From positions 1 to 40,751 of IMG/VR virus record IMGVR_UViG_3300022751_000024: 40,751 bases of DNA. One strand, 5' to 3'. Position 1 is the stretch's first letter, and each line of letters starts with the position of its first letter. Under the pieces are notes generated by a model that saw nothing but the letters and a program-made list of their open reading frames with translations, was not told where the DNA came from and ran no database searches. The DNA comes from a virus. Of this stretch, positions 1,026 to 28,041 are shown piece by piece. The position numbers were made by a program, and so were the translations under genes.

Positions 1026-2723
1026 ATGAATCCAATAACACTTAATACAGGAGAACAATTAGACCCTCAAGCTGTAAAGCTTATGCGGGCAATACGTCAA
1101 AAAGAAAGTGGTGGAAACTATAATGCTGTTGGAGATTCAGGTACCTCTACAGGTGCATTTCAATTTCAGAATGCAACATGGAAAGGATATGCAAAAGATG
1201 TTTTAGGTGATGAAAATGCAGAGCAAAATAAAGCAAATCAAAATAAGGTTGCCTATACAAAAATAAAAGGTTGGAAAGATAAAGGCTGGACACCTGAACA
1301 AGTAGCGGCCGCATGGAATGCAGGAGAGGCTAAGGCTCAAGATGGAAGATGGAAAACTAATGTCGGACATAATGCAAAGATAGATTTAGATTATGATACT
1401 CCTAAATATGTAAGTGATGTTATGGCAATTGCTAAAGGACAACCAACATACAATCCTAAACCATTCTCGCAACCTACAGGGCAATCATTAGTACCAGAAG
1501 TTCCACAAGTAGATGAAACTACACAACCTAAAGAAGAAACTTTAGGAGGTAAACTCATGGGTAGAATCAGTCAAGCAGGTACAGCATTAACAGATTCAGC
1601 AAGTGGCAAGATAAATCCATTCTCAGGACTTCTACAAACAGCTGGAGCTGGGGCAGGAGCTATTGGAGATGTTGCAGGAGCAGGGCTAGGATTGCTAAAT
1701 AAAGGAGCTAACTATCTTACAGGAGGACTACTTGGAAAGGCAGAAGACAAAGCTACAGAGTTGATTGGGAAAGGTATAGAAAAAGTAGCAAATACAGATA
1801 TTGGTAAATCAGTAATAAAAGGAACACAAGACTTTTCACAATCCCACCCTGAAGCTACAGGAAACCTTAAAGCAATAGGGAATATTGCAATGGCTGTTCC
1901 TGTTGTTAAAGGAGTTGGACTTGCTGGAGGTTTGGTTAAAGGAGGATTAGAAAAAACATTTGCAGGAGCTACAGAGAAAGCTATTCAAAAAGAACTTACA
2001 AGTGCAGCGATGCGTACTGTAGGTGGAAGAAAAGCATTAGAGAATGTAGGTGAGGATGGATTAAAAATACTAGCTAAAAAAGAAATAGCACCTGTAGTTG
2101 ATGCTACTGGAAAATATACTGAAGAATCACTAAGAAACTCATCTGAAAAGCTAGGGGAAATGATTAGTCATATTGAAAATAACGAACTACAACCACTACT
2201 TCAAAAAGGTTCTAACGGTCTTATATCTCAACGTGTACCACTCAAAACTTATGCAGATATGGCAGTTAAAGAGGCTGAAGACAGTTTAAAAGACGCTAGT
2301 CCAATAAAGAAATACTTTGAACGTATACAAAAGAAGTATGGGGACTTTCCTACTATCGGACAACTTAATGAGGCTAAAAGAATCGTTGCGAACAACATAA
2401 GTGAAGCTGGTTTTGCATCACCTACAATGACTACAGATAAGGTTGTACGAAGTGTACTACAGCAAAGTGTGGAAGACGCTGCTAAGGCACTTAAACTAGG
2501 AGATGTTGCTGCAATAAATGAAAAAATGGCCCAGCTTATAAAAGCAGATAAATTACTAGATACCATTGCTAATCGAAAAGTAACTCAAGACCTTGTGAGA
2601 AAAGTAACAACTAATGCCAAAGGTACAACTAAAGGATTATTAAAGAGTGGTCTTAAGAAAGCTGGTGCAGGTGCTTTAGCTGGAGCAGGATTCTATGGAG
2701 CAGCTAATCTACTTGAGAAGTGA
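1026..2723 (+). CDS. Virion-associated lytic transglycosylase / ejection protein
   Basis: 565 residues. Residues 15-135 form an SLT (soluble lytic transglycosylase)-type lysozyme domain: KESGG with the likely catalytic Glu27, then GAFQFQNATW at 43-52 and an AAAWNAGEAKA stretch near 95. The rest is a long Ala/Gly/Lys-rich region with helical, partly hydrophobic segments (about 190-240 and 275-310) and a glycine/alanine-rich C-terminus. This resembles short-tailed phage ejection proteins that carry a peptidoglycan-cutting domain and cross the envelope during DNA entry (T7 gp16 is the classic example). It starts 5 bases after the previous stop at an 'atATG' without a Shine-Dalgarno sequence. The enzyme domain is well supported; the ejection role is inferred. 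Confidence 0.8.
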   Translation: MNPITLNTGEQLDPQAVKLMRAIRQKESGGNYNAVGDSGTSTGAFQFQNATWKGYAKDVLGDENAEQNKANQNKVAYTKIKGWKDKGWTPEQVAAAWNAGEAKAQDGRWKTNVGHNAKIDLDYDTPKYVSDVMAIAKGQPTYNPKPFSQPTGQSLVPEVPQVDETTQPKEETLGGKLMGRISQAGTALTDSASGKINPFSGLLQTAGAGAGAIGDVAGAGLGLLNKGANYLTGGLLGKAEDKATELIGKGIEKVANTDIGKSVIKGTQDFSQSHPEATGNLKAIGNIAMAVPVVKGVGLAGGLVKGGLEKTFAGATEKAIQKELTSAAMRTVGGRKALENVGEDGLKILAKKEIAPVVDATGKYTEESLRNSSEKLGEMISHIENNELQPLLQKGSNGLISQRVPLKTYADMAVKEAEDSLKDASPIKKYFERIQKKYGDFPTIGQLNEAKRIVANNISEAGFASPTMTTDKVVRSVLQQSVEDAAKALKLGDVAAINEKMAQLIKADKLLDTIANRKVTQDLVRKVTTNAKGTTKGLLKSGLKKAGAGALAGAGFYGAANLLEK

Positions 2724-10385: not shown

Positions 10386-10918
10386 AATATTATATCTGAT
10401 TTTATTTCGTTCCCCCAACTATCCCAACCATCTACTTTTTCTCGTGCGAATAGCTCTACTCGGGGTAAATCACCTAATAATTGAATAATTTTTTCTCGTA
10501 CTTCACTTGGTTTTTTACTGTGAGCTTCAATAGGTGTCATCACAACAGAATGGACTCTAGCTGATATCCTTTTAGGTTTACCTTTTGTTGCCAATAAACA
10601 TAATTCTGCATTTGCTCTAGTCCAACGACCCATTCCCATAAAAGGTGTTGGTTTATTCTTATTTAATTTTACCCAAGTAAAAGCTACAGTCTTGTATTCA
10701 AATCCCCATGCTTTTATTAAATCAAAACACTGATTTAACTTTGGCATAGTAACCCACATGAATAATACACAATCATTATCAGCTAAACTTTTCACATCAA
10801 TATTTTCCATATCTTTTGGTTGCATAGTTTCATAGTGATTATGAACTCCTCTATCTCCGTCCATTGAAGAATTATATCCCCATGCTGGGTCTGCGTATAT
10901 TATGTTGTATTTTTTCAT
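10382..10918 (-). CDS. MT-A70 family adenine-N6 DNA methyltransferase
   Basis: 178 residues. DPAW at residues 10-13 is the catalytic DPPW-type motif. FMWVTMPKLNQC and the W-x-K/RANAELCLLATKGKP region, then HSKKPSEVREKI and RVELFARE near the end, are the usual conserved blocks of MT-A70 phage methyltransferases. Full length for the compact phage form. It would protect phage DNA from restriction or mark it. ATGA overlaps on both sides show translational coupling. Confidence 0.85.
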   Translation of the reverse strand: MKKYNIIYADPAWGYNSSMDGDRGVHNHYETMQPKDMENIDVKSLADNDCVLFMWVTMPKLNQCFDLIKAWGFEYKTVAFTWVKLNKNKPTPFMGMGRWTRANAELCLLATKGKPKRISARVHSVVMTPIEAHSKKPSEVREKIIQLLGDLPRVELFAREKVDGWDSWGNEIKSDIIL

Positions 10919-11112
10919 CTTGTTATATCTAATACATGTCGTTTTTTAATACCTTTCCTTTTAATACCTAGTTTCTTATCTGTATATAATGAATCAACTT
11001 TAATCTCCTTGATGCCATTAGTCATATTTACAGGCTTTTTATCCCTTGTATATACAGTAGGTTCTACTGGTGTCTTTGTGTCGTTGAAAACCCAGTGATT
11101 AAATGTCTTCAT
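10915..11112 (-). CDS. Small basic hypothetical protein (65 aa)
   Basis: Polar, Lys-rich protein with no hydrophobic segment. An ATGA overlap joins it to the methyltransferase downstream and another to the gene upstream. A nucleic-acid-binding or methyltransferase-accessory role is conceivable only from its charge and operon. Confidence 0.65.
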   Translation of the reverse strand: MKTFNHWVFNDTKTPVEPTVYTRDKKPVNMTNGIKEIKVDSLYTDKKLGIKRKGIKKRHVLDITR

Positions 11113-11359: not shown

Positions 11360-11384
11360 GGTAAGATTGAGTAGGTAAGATTGA
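11360..11384 (+). repeat. Tandem 11-bp direct repeat
   Basis: GGTAAGATTGA occurs at 11360-11370 and 11374-11384, separated by GTA. It abuts the outer stem of the ribozyme RNA. TAAGAT inside each copy equals the -10 box of the 17603 promoter, so this could be promoter or operator DNA; no clear -35 is spaced correctly. Confidence 0.7.
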
Positions 11385-11562
11385 AAATATATACCGTGGG
11401 TTACAAAGTTTAAATCCGACGAAAATTGAGTCTGTACTCGTAACATCTTGCCCACCTAAAACGGCTGAAGAGAGCTTTGAGCTTGAAACGTAGAAATACG
11501 TACCGCGGAGTGTCCCATGGTGGGGAATAACTGGACACCAACAGACTCACGGTATATATTTT
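11384..11562 (+). ncRNA. Large structured RNA enclosing a hammerhead ribozyme
   Basis: A 15-base perfect stem (11384-11398 with 11548-11562) closes the element. Inside it GAGTCTGT (11428-11435) pairs with ACAGACTC (11541-11548; they share one base at the edge), then CCCACC (11451-11456) with GGTGGG (11519-11524), and then the hammerhead core. An alternative GTGTCC/GGACAC hairpin (11510-11515, 11533-11538) would put GGTGGG in its loop, making a pseudoknot with CCCACC. Such a nest of perfect stems is very unlikely by chance and has no coding explanation. I know no RNA class matching the outer part. Confidence 0.75.
11462..11505 (+). ncRNA. Type I hammerhead self-cleaving ribozyme core
   Basis: In order: stem I CGG (11462-11464) pairing with CCG (11503-11505); invariant CUGAAGA (11465-11471, consensus CUGANGA); stem II of five pairs, GAGCU/AGCUU with a UUG loop (11472-11484); invariant GAAA (11485-11488); stem III, A15.1-U16.1 plus CGUA/UACG capped by a GAAA tetraloop; and the cleavage triplet GUA. 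Cleavage is predicted between 11502 and 11503. All core bases of the family consensus are present. The open stem is stem I, hence type I. Stem I continues after an internal loop into the 6-bp CCCACC/GGTGGG helix, where the usual loop contacts could form. Confidence 0.8.
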
Positions 11563-11571
11563 TAATAAAAA

Positions 11572-11588
11572 GATATCAACATGATATC
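11572..11588. repeat. GATATC-AACAT-GATATC repeat upstream of the early promoter
   Basis: Two GATATC copies (11572-11577, 11583-11588) separated by 5 bases, forming both a direct and an inverted repeat, end 6 bases before the -35 box. A plausible operator or short hairpin. Confidence 0.5.
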
Positions 11589-11593
11589 CACAC

Positions 11594-11623
11594 TTGACAA
11601 TTAAAAACAGGAGGGAGTATACT
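11594..11623 (+). promoter_or_regulatory. Rightward early promoter
   Basis: Perfect TTGACA (11594-11599), 18-base spacer, TATACT (11618-11623). Transcription would begin near 11630 and give a leader of about 330 bases before the first gene at 11962. This is the main candidate for driving the early region. Confidence 0.7.
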
Positions 11624-11629
11624 TAATAT

Positions 11630-11713
11630 GTTAGCTGAAAACTAACCCTAGAGTGTACATCTCACAAGAAACTTTTCTTGGGGTGGCCAGATATAATGTC
11701 TGGTATCTCTAGG
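11630..11713 (+). ncRNA. Structured 5' leader: hairpin plus three-way junction
   Basis: GTTAG/CTAAC hairpin (11630-11634, 11642-11646), then CCTAGAG (11647-11653) with CTCTAGG (11707-11713) closing two hairpins: CAAGAA/TTCTTG (11665-11670, 11675-11680) and CCAGA/TCTGG (11687-11691, 11699-11703). It sits exactly at the predicted 5' end of the early transcript and is followed by a T-rich stretch (11720-11728), so it may control elongation or stability. No known riboswitch consensus was recognised. Confidence 0.5.
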
Positions 11714-11784
11714 AAAGGTTTTTCTTTTAATACTGCATACACGTACAACTAGCGCCATGAACGTATATGTTTACCCTCTATATT

Positions 11785-11961: not shown

Positions 11962-12183
11962 ATGAGTAAGGAATGCTTAGAACATGGTAAAAAGAAAAAA
12001 TGTATTATAGAAAAACAAAATAAAGATATGGATACATTTGAAGTAAATAAAGAGGGAAAGTATCATATTAAGGGTATACCAGAGATAACATGGATGTTTG
12101 ATAGGCATCCTGTAAATAGAGAGGATGCTAAAAATATGTTTATTGAAAGAGTGAAAAATAACTTCCTTAAAAACAATGTCTAA
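11962..12183 (+). CDS. First early gene, hypothetical (73 aa)
   Basis: Lys-rich, charged protein with one CxxxxxxxxxC pair near the N-terminus (Cys5, Cys14) and no membrane segment. The stop overlaps the start of the next gene by 8 bases. No family recognised. Position directly after the structured leader suggests it is made first. Confidence 0.6.
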   Translation: MSKECLEHGKKKKCIIEKQNKDMDTFEVNKEGKYHIKGIPEITWMFDRHPVNREDAKNMFIERVKNNFLKNNV

Positions 12184-21229: not shown

Positions 21230-21455
21230 CTTTGACAACAGTAAGTGCTTGAGGGGGTATCTTCATGATTTCAAGATAGTTGGAGAGTATGGGACTCATA
21301 CAAGAGAACGATGTACATATTGTCGTAAAGAAATGATGTTTAGTAAGCAATCAGGCAGAAATACATCACTACGATATCTTTCATATCATATTAAAAACGC
21401 TCTTACTCCACAACACTACCTGTTTTATTTACACTATCCACAATATAAAAAATAA
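21216..21455 (+). CDS. Small Cys-containing protein between groES and groEL (79 aa)
   Basis: Basic, Tyr-rich protein with a CTYC pair (about residues 33-36) and one further Cys. It overlaps groES by 14 bases, and its stop overlaps the groEL start. It may assist the chaperonin or be an unrelated passenger. Confidence 0.55.
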   Translation: MKYYSFDNSKCLRGYLHDFKIVGEYGTHTRERCTYCRKEMMFSKQSGRNTSLRYLSYHIKNALTPQHYLFYLHYPQYKK

Positions 21456-23122
21456 TGAATAACGTAACACAAGGAACAAAAGCTATACAAGGAATGATAG
21501 ACGGTATCAAGCTTGTAACTAATGCTATACGACCTACATATGGTCATAATGGTATCAACGTAGTAGTAGAAGCAGACCGATACCCATTTCACAAGGTAGC
21601 TAACGATGCTCAAACTATCATACAAGCTATTGAAACAGAAAACCCAGTACAAAATCGAGGACTTGGTTTCTTAAAAGAACTATCTGATAAGCAAAATGCA
21701 ACTTCGGGAGATGGTCGTAAAACCACATGTATCATAGCTGAAACCATACTTGAGGAGGGTTTTAAATCAGAACTTAAAGGAATGAACTTAAAGCGTGAAC
21801 TAGACGCTCTTATTCCTGTTATAGAGCAGAAGATTGACGAACATAAACGAGTTATAGATATAGATGAAGTACACAAGGTGGCAACAATTGCAGGTGAATC
21901 AGAATCAATCGGTAACCTTATAGGCTCAATCTACAAGACGATAGGTAAAGATGGAGTTATAACTGTAGAGGGTTCAGGTACATATGACGATGGTATCAAG
22001 TATATAGATGGTGTAAGGTTCAATGATTGTGGTTTCTTAAGTCCACTCATGGCTCACGATAAAGACTCTGACAAACACGGAGATACAGGTTCAAAGAAGA
22101 ATGAGAATGGTATGGAAACTATGGGAGATAAAGTTCTTACTAAAGCAGTCTATGAAAATCCACTCATCTTAGTAACGTATCAGAAAATGGAGAAGCAAGA
22201 ACACTTTGATACTATCCTTGGACTTATGGATAAGCACGGTAAAAAAGACCTTATTATCTTCACTCATGATATGGATAGTCGAGTGGCCCAAGTCCTACTA
22301 GACACCCATAAGCAAGAGATGTTCAACATTTGTATTATCAAAGCACCATCAGTATTCAGAATGGAAGTATTTGAAGACTTCGCAAAGGTAACAGGAGCTA
22401 CAGTTATATCAGACATCACAGGACTGGACTTAGCAGACTTGCCTATAGACCTTTCATTTTGTGGTACATGTTATAAAATTATAGTAGACAAGAACGAAAC
22501 AACTATTATCGGAACTCAAGATGTATCAGAACATATAGCCGAACTGAAAGCACAGAACACAGAACTAGCAAACATGCGTATTAAATGGCTATCAACAAAG
22601 ACAGCTGTACTTAAACTTGGAGCAAATAACGAGAGTGAGCTATCATACAGACGATTGAAGTGTGAAGATGCTGTAAATGCCTCACGATTAGCCCTACAAG
22701 ACGGCGTAGTGCAAGGAGGGGGTATAACCCTGTACAAAGTAGCTCACGAACTTCCAGACACTGTAGCAGGCGATATATTGCGAACGGCACTTATTGCTCC
22801 AGTATGCCAGATTATGACGAATGCGGGAGAAGCAAAAAAACCACTTATGATGTTTTCAGGAGCAGATAAACTAAAACTCAAAGATATAAATACTACAGGT
22901 GAAATAATAATGTTACCTGAAGGAGTAGAAATGAAGACACTACCTGACTACATGTTTGATATACCTGATACATTTGGAGATAATGTCCTTGACGCTTCAC
23001 TTGTAACTAAGAACGCTATTCGCAATGCAATATCACTCGCTTCAACAGTCCTTACTACAGGAGTAGTTATCACACTACCTCCAAAGGAGAAAGAATTACC
23101 AAATAAACCATTTACAATATAA
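21455..23122 (+). CDS. groEL: GroEL-like group I chaperonin (phage-encoded)
   Basis: 555 residues, close to the usual 548. Nucleotide-site residues are kept: KVANDAQ with Asp51, SGDGRKTT with Asp86 and KCEDAVNAS with Asp405 (E. coli 52, 87, 398), and GGG at 421-423. The usual GDGTTT is GDGRKTT. The apical domain carries an insertion of about 20 residues (roughly 199-232), rich in Asp, Lys and Asn. The C-terminus lacks the GGM repeat tail. It looks active as an ATPase. Its place directly ahead of terminase and capsid genes suggests folding of structural proteins. Phage GroEL genes are rare but known (for example Pseudomonas phage EL). Confidence 0.9.
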   Translation: MNNVTQGTKAIQGMIDGIKLVTNAIRPTYGHNGINVVVEADRYPFHKVANDAQTIIQAIETENPVQNRGLGFLKELSDKQNATSGDGRKTTCIIAETILEEGFKSELKGMNLKRELDALIPVIEQKIDEHKRVIDIDEVHKVATIAGESESIGNLIGSIYKTIGKDGVITVEGSGTYDDGIKYIDGVRFNDCGFLSPLMAHDKDSDKHGDTGSKKNENGMETMGDKVLTKAVYENPLILVTYQKMEKQEHFDTILGLMDKHGKKDLIIFTHDMDSRVAQVLLDTHKQEMFNICIIKAPSVFRMEVFEDFAKVTGATVISDITGLDLADLPIDLSFCGTCYKIIVDKNETTIIGTQDVSEHIAELKAQNTELANMRIKWLSTKTAVLKLGANNESELSYRRLKCEDAVNASRLALQDGVVQGGGITLYKVAHELPDTVAGDILRTALIAPVCQIMTNAGEAKKPLMMFSGADKLKLKDINTTGEIIMLPEGVEMKTLPDYMFDIPDTFGDNVLDASLVTKNAIRNAISLASTVLTTGVVITLPPKEKELPNKPFTI

Positions 23123-26217: not shown

Positions 26218-28041
26218 ATGAACGAAGATTCATTCATCAAAAACATAGAAGGAGTATCAAGTCTTGTTAATAGCGAGACGAATAAGACTTATTCTACTAC
26301 AGAGTTAGAAGATGGGGTTATTGGTCAGCCTATAAATGCACTCAAGTTAAACATGGATGATGAAGAGCTTGTACGATTATCTAAAGAATGGGAACTTATA
26401 TCAAAGAACTACAATAAGCAAGTAGAGGGACGACAGAATAATAACCTTAAATATTACCTAGGACGACAGATTGATAATCCTAATGATAAAGTGGTAGCAT
26501 CTAACCTTATCTTTGAGGCAGAAGAAACCTTTATACCACAAGCTCTTTCACGTAATCCTGACCCAGTAGTGTGGAGCGATGATTCTAAAGAGGGGCAAGA
26601 AGCATCTAATCAAATTAAGACAATGCTTCAGTACAAGGCTCATACACTTGGACTACGAGGTAAGCTTGGAGTAATGGTACGTCACTGGTCTGTTTACTTT
26701 ATTGGTATAAAGAAATACGGATGGAGTATAGAAGATAATGATATTAAGGATGAGATACGAAAGCCAAAGAACTTTCTCCTGTCACCTAAGGCATGGATTG
26801 ATGAATTTGGTAACTATGTAGGTGGACCACTTGGAGAAATGATTGATTCTACAGCAGAGGAATTAATTAAACTATATCCTGAACATAAGACATACATCAC
26901 TCTTAAGGTAGATGCAAAGTTAGGTACTGAAGTTGTACGAACAGAGTGGTGGACTGATGAGTATTGCTTCGTGAAGTTCGGAGAAAAGATACTTGATAAG
27001 TATAAAAACCCTTTCTTCAACTACGAAACAAAGGAGCATGATATGTTTGGTACTGAAACTGTTACACCAGCTAAGAACCATTTTAATAAGCCACGAATGC
27101 CGTATACGTTCTTGTCAGTATTCTCACTACAAGAAGCACCTCACGATGTAACAAGTCTTATCGAGCAGTCTATTCCTAATCAAGATAGAATTACTGAACG
27201 AGATATACAAATCAGTAAGAACCTACGAGCAGGTAACAACGCCATTGTCCTGTCAGGTCAGTCTTTCAACAGTGAAACCGCTCATCAGGCTGCACTTGCT
27301 ATTGAAATGGGTCACCCTATCCTTTCACCTGATGGGAATACAGACGCTGTAAAACGCCTACCAGCGAACGATATTCCTAGTGCTGTATTCAACTCACAAG
27401 AAAATGATAAAGAGGCTCTACGGGGCATATTTGGCACTTCAGGGCTATCTGCGGTGACACAAGACGAGAATACAACAGCTAGAGGAATGATTCTCAACCA
27501 ATCACATGATTCTTCACGTATTGGAGGAGGTATTGGAGAAGCTATTGAACGAGTAGCAGATACAACATTTAACTGGTATCTACAACTCATGATGGTGTTC
27601 TATGATGAACCTCACTATGCGTCAATGATTGGTAACGGTAGAGCAGTAACATATGTAGCAATAGTAAACTCTGACATTAATCGACACTTCAACATCAAGG
27701 TAGAACCTGATTCAATGAAGCCTAAAGATGAGATTTCAGAACAGAACCTAGCAGTAGAATTATGGCAGCAGAAAGCTCTTGACCCTATATCCCTATTTCA
27801 AAAGATGAATTACCCCGACCCAATGGACACAGCAAAGAAAGTAGCTCTATGGACAACAAACCCACAACTGTATATGCAGATGTACTTCCCTGAACAGCCC
27901 GTAGCTCCCGATAGTGCGAACCCTGAAGTAGGAGGACAACCACAACCAATACCAGCAGATACACAAACGGGACTATCAGCACCACCTGCAAGTGCATCAT
28001 TATCAAATGTTCCAATAAATAGCATGGCAACGCCACAATAA
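26218..28041 (+). CDS. Portal protein
   Basis: 607 residues. The N-terminal half has NNLKYYLGRQIDNP, VASNLIFEAEETFIPQAL and the YFIGIKKYGWSI block; the middle has NQDRITERDIQISKNLRAGNNAIV and a GTSGLSAVTQDENTTARGM segment with a helical stem. These fit a portal ring subunit of the large phage type. It directly follows the terminase and precedes the scaffold gene. The C-terminus is a Pro/Gln-rich tail. No protease or head-morphogenesis gene lies next to it. Confidence 0.8.
   Translation: MNEDSFIKNIEGVSSLVNSETNKTYSTTELEDGVIGQPINALKLNMDDEELVRLSKEWELISKNYNKQVEGRQNNNLKYYLGRQIDNPNDKVVASNLIFEAEETFIPQALSRNPDPVVWSDDSKEGQEASNQIKTMLQYKAHTLGLRGKLGVMVRHWSVYFIGIKKYGWSIEDNDIKDEIRKPKNFLLSPKAWIDEFGNYVGGPLGEMIDSTAEELIKLYPEHKTYITLKVDAKLGTEVVRTEWWTDEYCFVKFGEKILDKYKNPFFNYETKEHDMFGTETVTPAKNHFNKPRMPYTFLSVFSLQEAPHDVTSLIEQSIPNQDRITERDIQISKNLRAGNNAIVLSGQSFNSETAHQAALAIEMGHPILSPDGNTDAVKRLPANDIPSAVFNSQENDKEALRGIFGTSGLSAVTQDENTTARGMILNQSHDSSRIGGGIGEAIERVADTTFNWYLQLMMVFYDEPHYASMIGNGRAVTYVAIVNSDINRHFNIKVEPDSMKPKDEISEQNLAVELWQQKALDPISLFQKMNYPDPMDTAKKVALWTTNPQLYMQMYFPEQPVAPDSANPEVGGQPQPIPADTQTGLSAPPASASLSNVPINSMATPQ

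Follow-up and report, generated by a model that had tools for sequence, protein, structure and literature searches.

The locus and its hammerhead

The window, by which we mean the whole stretch of 40,751 nucleotides analysed here (IMG/VR virus record IMGVR_UViG_3300022751_000024), carries the element in a gap between divergent genes: the last minus-strand gene occupies 10915-11112 and the first plus-strand gene begins at 11962. A methyltransferase gene and a NinG-like gene lie to the left of the element, an early operon with an ERF recombinase lies to its right, and a promoter-like site is found downstream of it at 11594-11623. Elsewhere in the window, 21455-23122 encodes a GroEL-like chaperonin (PHROG 5725, E=8e-72) and 26218-28041 a portal-like protein, for which one distant match is annotated as portal and the only matches in isolate phage records, a TM7 phage and an environmental Caudoviricetes, are at about 22-25% identity.

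Every element of a type I hammerhead core could be read in order from the plus strand at 11462-11505. Stem I is formed by CGG (11462-11464) and CCG (11503-11505). It is followed by CUGAAGA (11465-11471), which agrees with the CUGANGA core and is supported by the core counts across the family. Stem II (11472-11484) has 5 bp and a UUG loop, GAAA occupies 11485-11488, and stem III (11488-11492 with 11497-11501) carries a GAAA tetraloop and is closed by the A15.1-U16.1 pair. The combination of GAAA with A15.1-U16.1 (11485-11488 and 11501) recurs in 65 of 65 family members, and both stems II and III are conserved as base pairs whose covariation in the family is far above that of shuffles. The GUA triplet (11500-11502) is of the NUH type and puts the predicted self-cleavage between A11502 and C11503, a placement consistent with the composition of position 17 in the family. 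The preliminary description had predicted cleavage after A11502 as well, and we judge it right as a prediction. At 10.1-11.1, hammerheads usually have G-C, which is not strictly required; the window has G.U instead of this pair. Stem I had been described as open, but this was not so: its three pairs, for which compensatory triplets exist in named phages (see below), are followed by an internal loop, then the 6-bp helix P3 and then outer helices. An A.C mismatch lies beyond the three pairs, and stem I has a probability of 0.004 in the thermodynamic fold of the whole RNA under a pseudoknot-free model. With its short stem I, the mismatch, the G.U at 10.1-11.1 and this low probability, the ribozyme of the window could be slow or inactive.

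A mere chance resemblance to a hammerhead might be suspected from the loose core pattern, which gave 4 matches in the window where 0.99 would be expected by chance and is alone not significant. However, the full descriptor (stems I≥3, II≥5 and III≥5 bp) gave one match in 940 Mb of simulated sequence, corresponding to 8.7e-5 per window on both strands, and it was found nowhere else in 1.3 Mb of fetched phage loci. Together with the family-wide pairing and the intact cores, this leaves chance with practically no weight, and the covarying stems already refute it. The Rfam hammerhead covariance models, proposed as a check in the preliminary description, returned nothing above threshold: the clan gave no match in the window even at E≤10, the gathering scores of RF00163, RF02276 and the others were not reached, and the relative L160 obtained 15.9 bits against Hammerhead_HH9, whose cut-off is 52. 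On sequence grounds, the homology evidence outweighs the missing match and the observation is confirmed; the earlier claim of a type I hammerhead with all elements is borne out by the sequence, the chance rate and homology. Rfam was rejected as the sole test, since it fails across the family; used alone, it would have led to this finding being discarded in error. In one phage contig with a family member (L144), a separate Hammerhead_II match of 43.2 bits was obtained at 2070-2133 (+), about 10 kb from the element, i.e. two hammerhead types in one phage.

A larger RNA around the ribozyme

The ribozyme takes the apical position of a larger RNA on the plus strand at 11380-11566, which is indicated by a covariance-model match and by a shuffle z-score of -4.3 for the fold of 11380-11565. 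From 5' to 3', the order is P0, CCGUGGG, hairpin H1, CAUCU, the 5' strand of P3, the insert, CCGYGGAGU, the 3' strand of P3, GAAUAAMUG, the 3' strands of pseudoknots PK2 and PK1, and P0 again. The conserved outer RNA amounts to about 105 nucleotides, and H1, P3, PK1, PK2 and the four conserved blocks are all present in the window. The terminal helix P0 is an inverted repeat, also seen in the MFE fold, in which 11380-11396 pairs with 11550-11566. The 5' block CCGUGGG (11394-11400) is near-invariant across 92 members, and its C, C, G, G and G columns are invariant in the hammerhead-less set. H1 (11400-11444) pairs GUUAC (11400-11404) with GUAAC (11440-11444), as supported by covariation, and its large loop carries the 5' strand of PK1, UGAGUCUGU (11427-11435), which forms 9 exact base pairs with the 3' strand ACAGACUCA (11541-11549). 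CAUCU (11444-11448) is invariant in the alignment and present in the parsed members. Six pairs each make up P3 (CCCACC at 11451-11456 with GGUGGG at 11519-11524) and PK2 (GUGUCC at 11510-11515 with GGACAC at 11533-11538), both supported by covariation. The CCGYGGAGU block, here CCGCGGAGU (11503-11511), doubles as the 3' strand of stem I; PK2 begins at its end, and it is kept in hammerhead-less members too. The GAAUAAMUG block, here GAAUAACUG (11525-11533), is near-invariant. A first MFE fold with one closing helix of 22 bp was partly replaced by H1 and PK1 given the relatives.

About 80 nt after the RNA, the window has a cloverleaf-like segment (11645-11715) closed by the 7-bp CCUAGAG...CUCUAGG and containing a 5-bp hairpin with a 7-nt loop. 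It was not called as a tRNA; a degenerate tRNA or some other small RNA is possible.

The pairs of H1, P3 and PK2 were Watson-Crick or G.U in 97-100% of 88 members, with up to five pair types. For P3, the six pairs were formed in 87-88 of the 88 members, and for PK2 in all 88, each with up to five types. Shuffled partners fell short at all variable pairs except one nearly invariant pair of P3 and one of PK2; for the variable pairs of H1 (97-100% paired) no shuffle equalled the observed value. PK1 typically formed 7 Watson-Crick pairs, compared with about 4 when partners were swapped. Furthermore, G/U in the 5' block covaried with C/A at the seventh base of GAAUAAMUG in 88 of 88 members, which, as far as covariation can tell, is the mark of a tertiary base pair. 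RNAalifold applied to 17 hammerhead-less members recovered H1 and P3 unaided. A covariance model (R1), built from 17 hammerhead-less relatives with the window excluded, matched the window at 11382-11576 (+) with 45.3 bits and E=5.7e-10, and at E=1.4e-10 in a further search, E-values which are to be taken as rough. In a search of Rfam release 15 at E≤10, the hammerhead-less member L276 yielded no matches apart from its adjacent tRNA and some due to chance, and at gathering thresholds no Rfam family, GOLLD and ROOL included, matched the element in seven loci. As a separate observation, the two CCGUGG-type blocks change their first base in concert, to the same letter, in L296, L299, L300 and L301 (C/C, G/G, U/U), although C in the second block is also combined with A in the first; a tertiary or dimer contact is possible.

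Relatives and their distribution

A scan of IMG/VR with the core pattern and the local stem-I letters gave 16 loci, 10 of which share the core and the flanking helices and motifs with the window. A wider scan gave at least 119 matches; among those listed, 100 (78 distinct) have the AAYAA motif that is found downstream in the family, and they share the outer architecture with the window. A third scan, for which the conserved 3' block only was used and the ribozyme core was ignored, also gave at least 119 matches, and those listed include many members in which the outer RNA is complete but a hammerhead is absent. Altogether the outer RNA recurs in at least 100 phage contigs, the prevalence from these scans being a lower bound. 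The matches L293 and L295, both from genome_contigs, and the match L093 were rejected as chance. A similar pattern gave only 5 matches in GTDB genomes (one per species), two of them chance, and blastn with one member found no match in plasmids; thus the outer RNA is essentially a phage RNA. It occurs in isolated phages of Arthrobacter, Mycobacterium, Microcystis, Pectobacterium and Enterobacter, including the culturable phages Constance, Gaia, Pappous and Mwe-JY26, and the contigs that bear it range from about 20 to 266 kb. Tandem pairs of the RNA were seen at L237:2539-2889 (-) and in G083 (L261).

Seeking relatives through the neighbouring methyltransferase gene was abandoned because that gene family is too broad. 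The portal and terminase relatives of the window phage lack the whole element, and L275, the one locus that closely matches the window in the H1 loop, lacks a hammerhead and shows no close similarity to the window at the protein level. The element is therefore patchily distributed, and ribozyme presence seems to change often. It had been argued earlier that loss of the invariant bases in related phages would speak against the hammerhead. The outcome of this check was mixed: the nearest phages by terminase and portal are uninformative on this point since the whole element is absent from them, whereas among the relatives of the RNA itself the core is intact in nearly all copies with an insert.

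The hammerhead as an optional insert

Within the family, the hammerhead is inserted at one fixed position, between the 5' strand of P3 and CCGYGGAGU. Among the listed matches found without regard to the core, 65 were distinct: 44 had an intact core and 16 a short insert or none, two (L267 and Mycobacterium phage Gaia) had a broken core, one (L269) was cut by a contig end and two were unusable. In this sample about 70% of the members thus have an intact hammerhead and about 25% have none. Among the isolated phages, the hammerhead is intact in Constance and missing from Mwe-JY26. In the 65 parsed members that bear a hammerhead, the 10.2 pair of stem II was formed in 65 of 65 (shuffle mean 29.8), as were the 15.1-15.3 pairs of stem III (shuffle mean 30.1 for 15.3). 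Residue 17 was C in 40, A in 21 and U in 4 of them, the parsing having excluded G, and 10.1-11.1 varied with unusual freedom, being G-C in 35, A.A in 19, U.U in 6 and others in 5. The 3' strand of stem I is the CCG of the CCGYGGAGU block, and where this block differs the ribozyme differs with it: phages Pappous and SDFMU_EhYP have CGC with GCG, and phiGD24-3 has CGA with UCG. Hammerhead-less members keep CCGYGGAGU, so the block is a part of the host RNA to which the ribozyme has adapted. As judged from these comparisons, core and stems of the hammerhead are under selection in an optional insert at a fixed site, and the combination of variable stems with cores that stay intact suggests that catalysis is being selected for.

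Two other readings of the insert have to be weighed here. The hammerhead fold may be real but non-cleaving in this phage and be retained as a structural arm of the host RNA, which seems to be the case in Gaia. The G.U at 10.1-11.1, the 3-bp stem I and the competing fold in the window would agree with this, and Gaia retains the stems around a broken UUGAUAA core. However, the invariant core bases of the window are all intact, its A at position 17 is shared by about a third of the members, and only 2 of about 46 inserts have a broken core, so that we regard a non-cleaving arm as unlikely. Alternatively, the hammerhead could be a selfish or mobile self-cutting insert which uses the RNA as a landing site with no benefit to phage or RNA, comparable to the intervening sequences that fragment ribosomal RNA without re-joining. 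Its single fixed point, where permutation (see next) also interrupts the backbone, is in line with such an insert, and so are the at least 20 changes of ribozyme presence or absence on a poorly resolved tree; but this outer-RNA tree has too few columns and is too weak for counting gains. Moreover, the core is kept in nearly all copies, stem I is tailored to the CCG of the host RNA, suggesting long co-evolution, and nothing like a mobility gene was found. A selfish insert is accordingly not a likely explanation either.

Circular permutation

In some members the gene is permuted: the hammerhead and the 3' half come first, a hairpin closes the former P0, and CCGUGGG, H1, CAUCU and P3 come last. 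This order was found in the IMG/VR members L151, L163, L165, L187, L191, L221, L223, L230 and L252 and near copies, and the same order in Pectobacterium phage Pappous and Enterobacter phage SDFMU_EhYP. The backbone of the permuted gene is broken in the same loop in which the ribozyme of the ordinary gene is predicted to cut, as would be expected if the RNA could do without an unbroken backbone there. A recurrent hairpin with the conserved loop GGAAAGAC was also observed right after the RNA (for example CCCC-GGAAAGAC-GGGG), 3' of the permuted RNA in L163, L221 and L230 and 3' of the ordinary RNA in L157, L180 and L210; sometimes it precedes the RNA as well (L230). It is possibly a terminator or a processing signal.

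Genomic neighbourhood and proposed mechanism

A tRNA gene lies within 600 nt of 24 of 107 elements, compared with 6.9% of random positions, and the 69 tRNAs found within this distance all share the strand of the element. The RNA lies inside a tRNA array in Microcystis phage Mwe-JY26, between tRNA genes in Mycobacterium phages Gaia and phiGD24-3 and just upstream of tRNA-Met in Pappous, while in SDFMU_EhYP it is placed between capsid and tail genes. The placement in tRNA arrays suggests a stable RNA made together with the phage tRNAs. No neighbouring protein or downstream gene was found to be constant across the members, and control of one downstream gene was rejected for want of a consistent neighbour. 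The preliminary description had placed the ribozyme in a divergent control region, which holds for the gap in the window, though the RNA family has no fixed link to control regions. It had also suggested the processing of an early or regulatory RNA. This was not supported, because members occur in tRNA arrays, beside tRNAs and between structural genes, and many have no hammerhead; fragmentation of a non-coding RNA fits better than the processing of an early or regulatory mRNA.

These neighbourhoods also bear on two further readings. If the outer RNA were a riboswitch-like cis control of the downstream operon with the hammerhead as its expression platform, the position of the window element between divergent genes and the promoter-like site after it (11594-11623) could be accounted for. 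However, the lack of a consistent downstream gene, the member inside a tRNA array with no coding gene adjoining, and the long closing P0 helix, which marks a self-contained RNA, make this very unlikely. The element could otherwise be a part of the DNA packaging machinery, either a packaging RNA or a signal beside terminase, given that terminase genes are the commonest identifiable neighbours. In 50 whole records, though, a terminase lay within about 1.5 kb of the element in 4 of the about 22 with a detected terminase, not clearly above chance, and the search of the hammerhead-less member against the Rfam library gave no relevant match. We consider packaging extremely unlikely.

The family, its helices, both pseudoknots, the optional insertion at a fixed site and the permutation are evident from comparative sequence data. 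The reading that we prefer, and hold with good confidence, is a phage non-coding RNA with an inserted type I hammerhead that is cleaved in cis to give a two-piece RNA. The transcript would adopt a compact fold with two pseudoknots, closed off by P0, in which the apical hammerhead would cut in cis after A11502, just before CCGYGGAGU. The 5' piece is expected to end in the ribozyme with a 2',3'-cyclic phosphate and the 3' piece to begin with 5'-OH-CCGCGGAGU, and both pieces would stay bound to each other via P0, PK1, P3 and PK2. The ribozyme would thus yield a "fragmented" RNA whose backbone may not be needed at the cut point. In permuted genes, which begin with the ribozyme, the cut would define the 5' end of the RNA. 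Since hammerhead-less members keep the same RNA intact, cleavage cannot be essential to the function of the RNA in general. The host RNA may act in trans with phage tRNAs. More broadly, it is rather likely that these RNAs form one widespread phage RNA class, with the hammerhead as an exchangeable module, that exists uncut, self-cut in two pieces that stay together, or permuted with a ribozyme-set 5' end, and that it probably acts in trans with phage tRNAs during infection.

Comparison with known systems

The hammerhead is one of the best-studied ribozymes, although, as far as we know, its role in phages and bacteria is largely unexplained. In the present family its structural setting is concrete, namely a defined position within a conserved RNA, and natural versions that lack the ribozyme, have lost it or are rearranged around it make the purpose of the cut testable by comparison. 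The outer RNA is a candidate for a new class of RNA that is present in culturable phages, and its occurrence in contigs of about 20 to 266 kb and in such phages suggests a widely useful function in infection. The link between permutation and self-cleavage would offer a simple route for permuted RNA genes to arise. In the openly available papers (main texts) and databases, we found no description of the outer RNA, nor of a conserved RNA with permuted forms into which a hammerhead is optionally inserted. The ribozyme is of a known kind, whereas the outer RNA and the modular arrangement are new.

With the type I hammerhead (Rfam RF00163, clan CL00010) the insert shares CUGANGA, GAAA, A15.1-U16.1, the NUH triplet and three helices with the ends on stem I. 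It differs in that 10.1-11.1 is often A.A, U.U or G.U, in scoring below the Rfam thresholds, and in its stem I of 3-4 bp, which is built on a block conserved in another RNA and continues into a host RNA with pseudoknots. Hammerheads have been reported in intergenic regions of phages and archaeal viruses, including PaP3, Bcep176 and HF1/HF2, and the available portion of that report describes no shared host RNA (Perreault et al., 2011; PMC3088659). The PaP3 hammerhead as given there shares the phage-intergenic setting and was rejected as a family member, the outer RNA being absent. GOLLD and ROOL are phage-encoded structured RNAs of unknown function often found near tRNA islands, GOLLD often exceeding 800 nt (PMC12286853); the outer RNA has the same kind of setting, but there is no Rfam match between its members and these families. 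Two-piece tmRNA is made from circularly permuted genes as a functional RNA of two fragments (PMC10085705). In contrast, a predicted self-cleaving ribozyme would do the cutting here, and unpermuted, cut and uncut versions coexist. Finally, in the non-circularly permuted hammerhead of type SGC the ribozyme's own blocks are rearranged (PMC10085705); both are new natural hammerhead arrangements, but in the present family the type I order is kept and it is the host RNA that is permuted.
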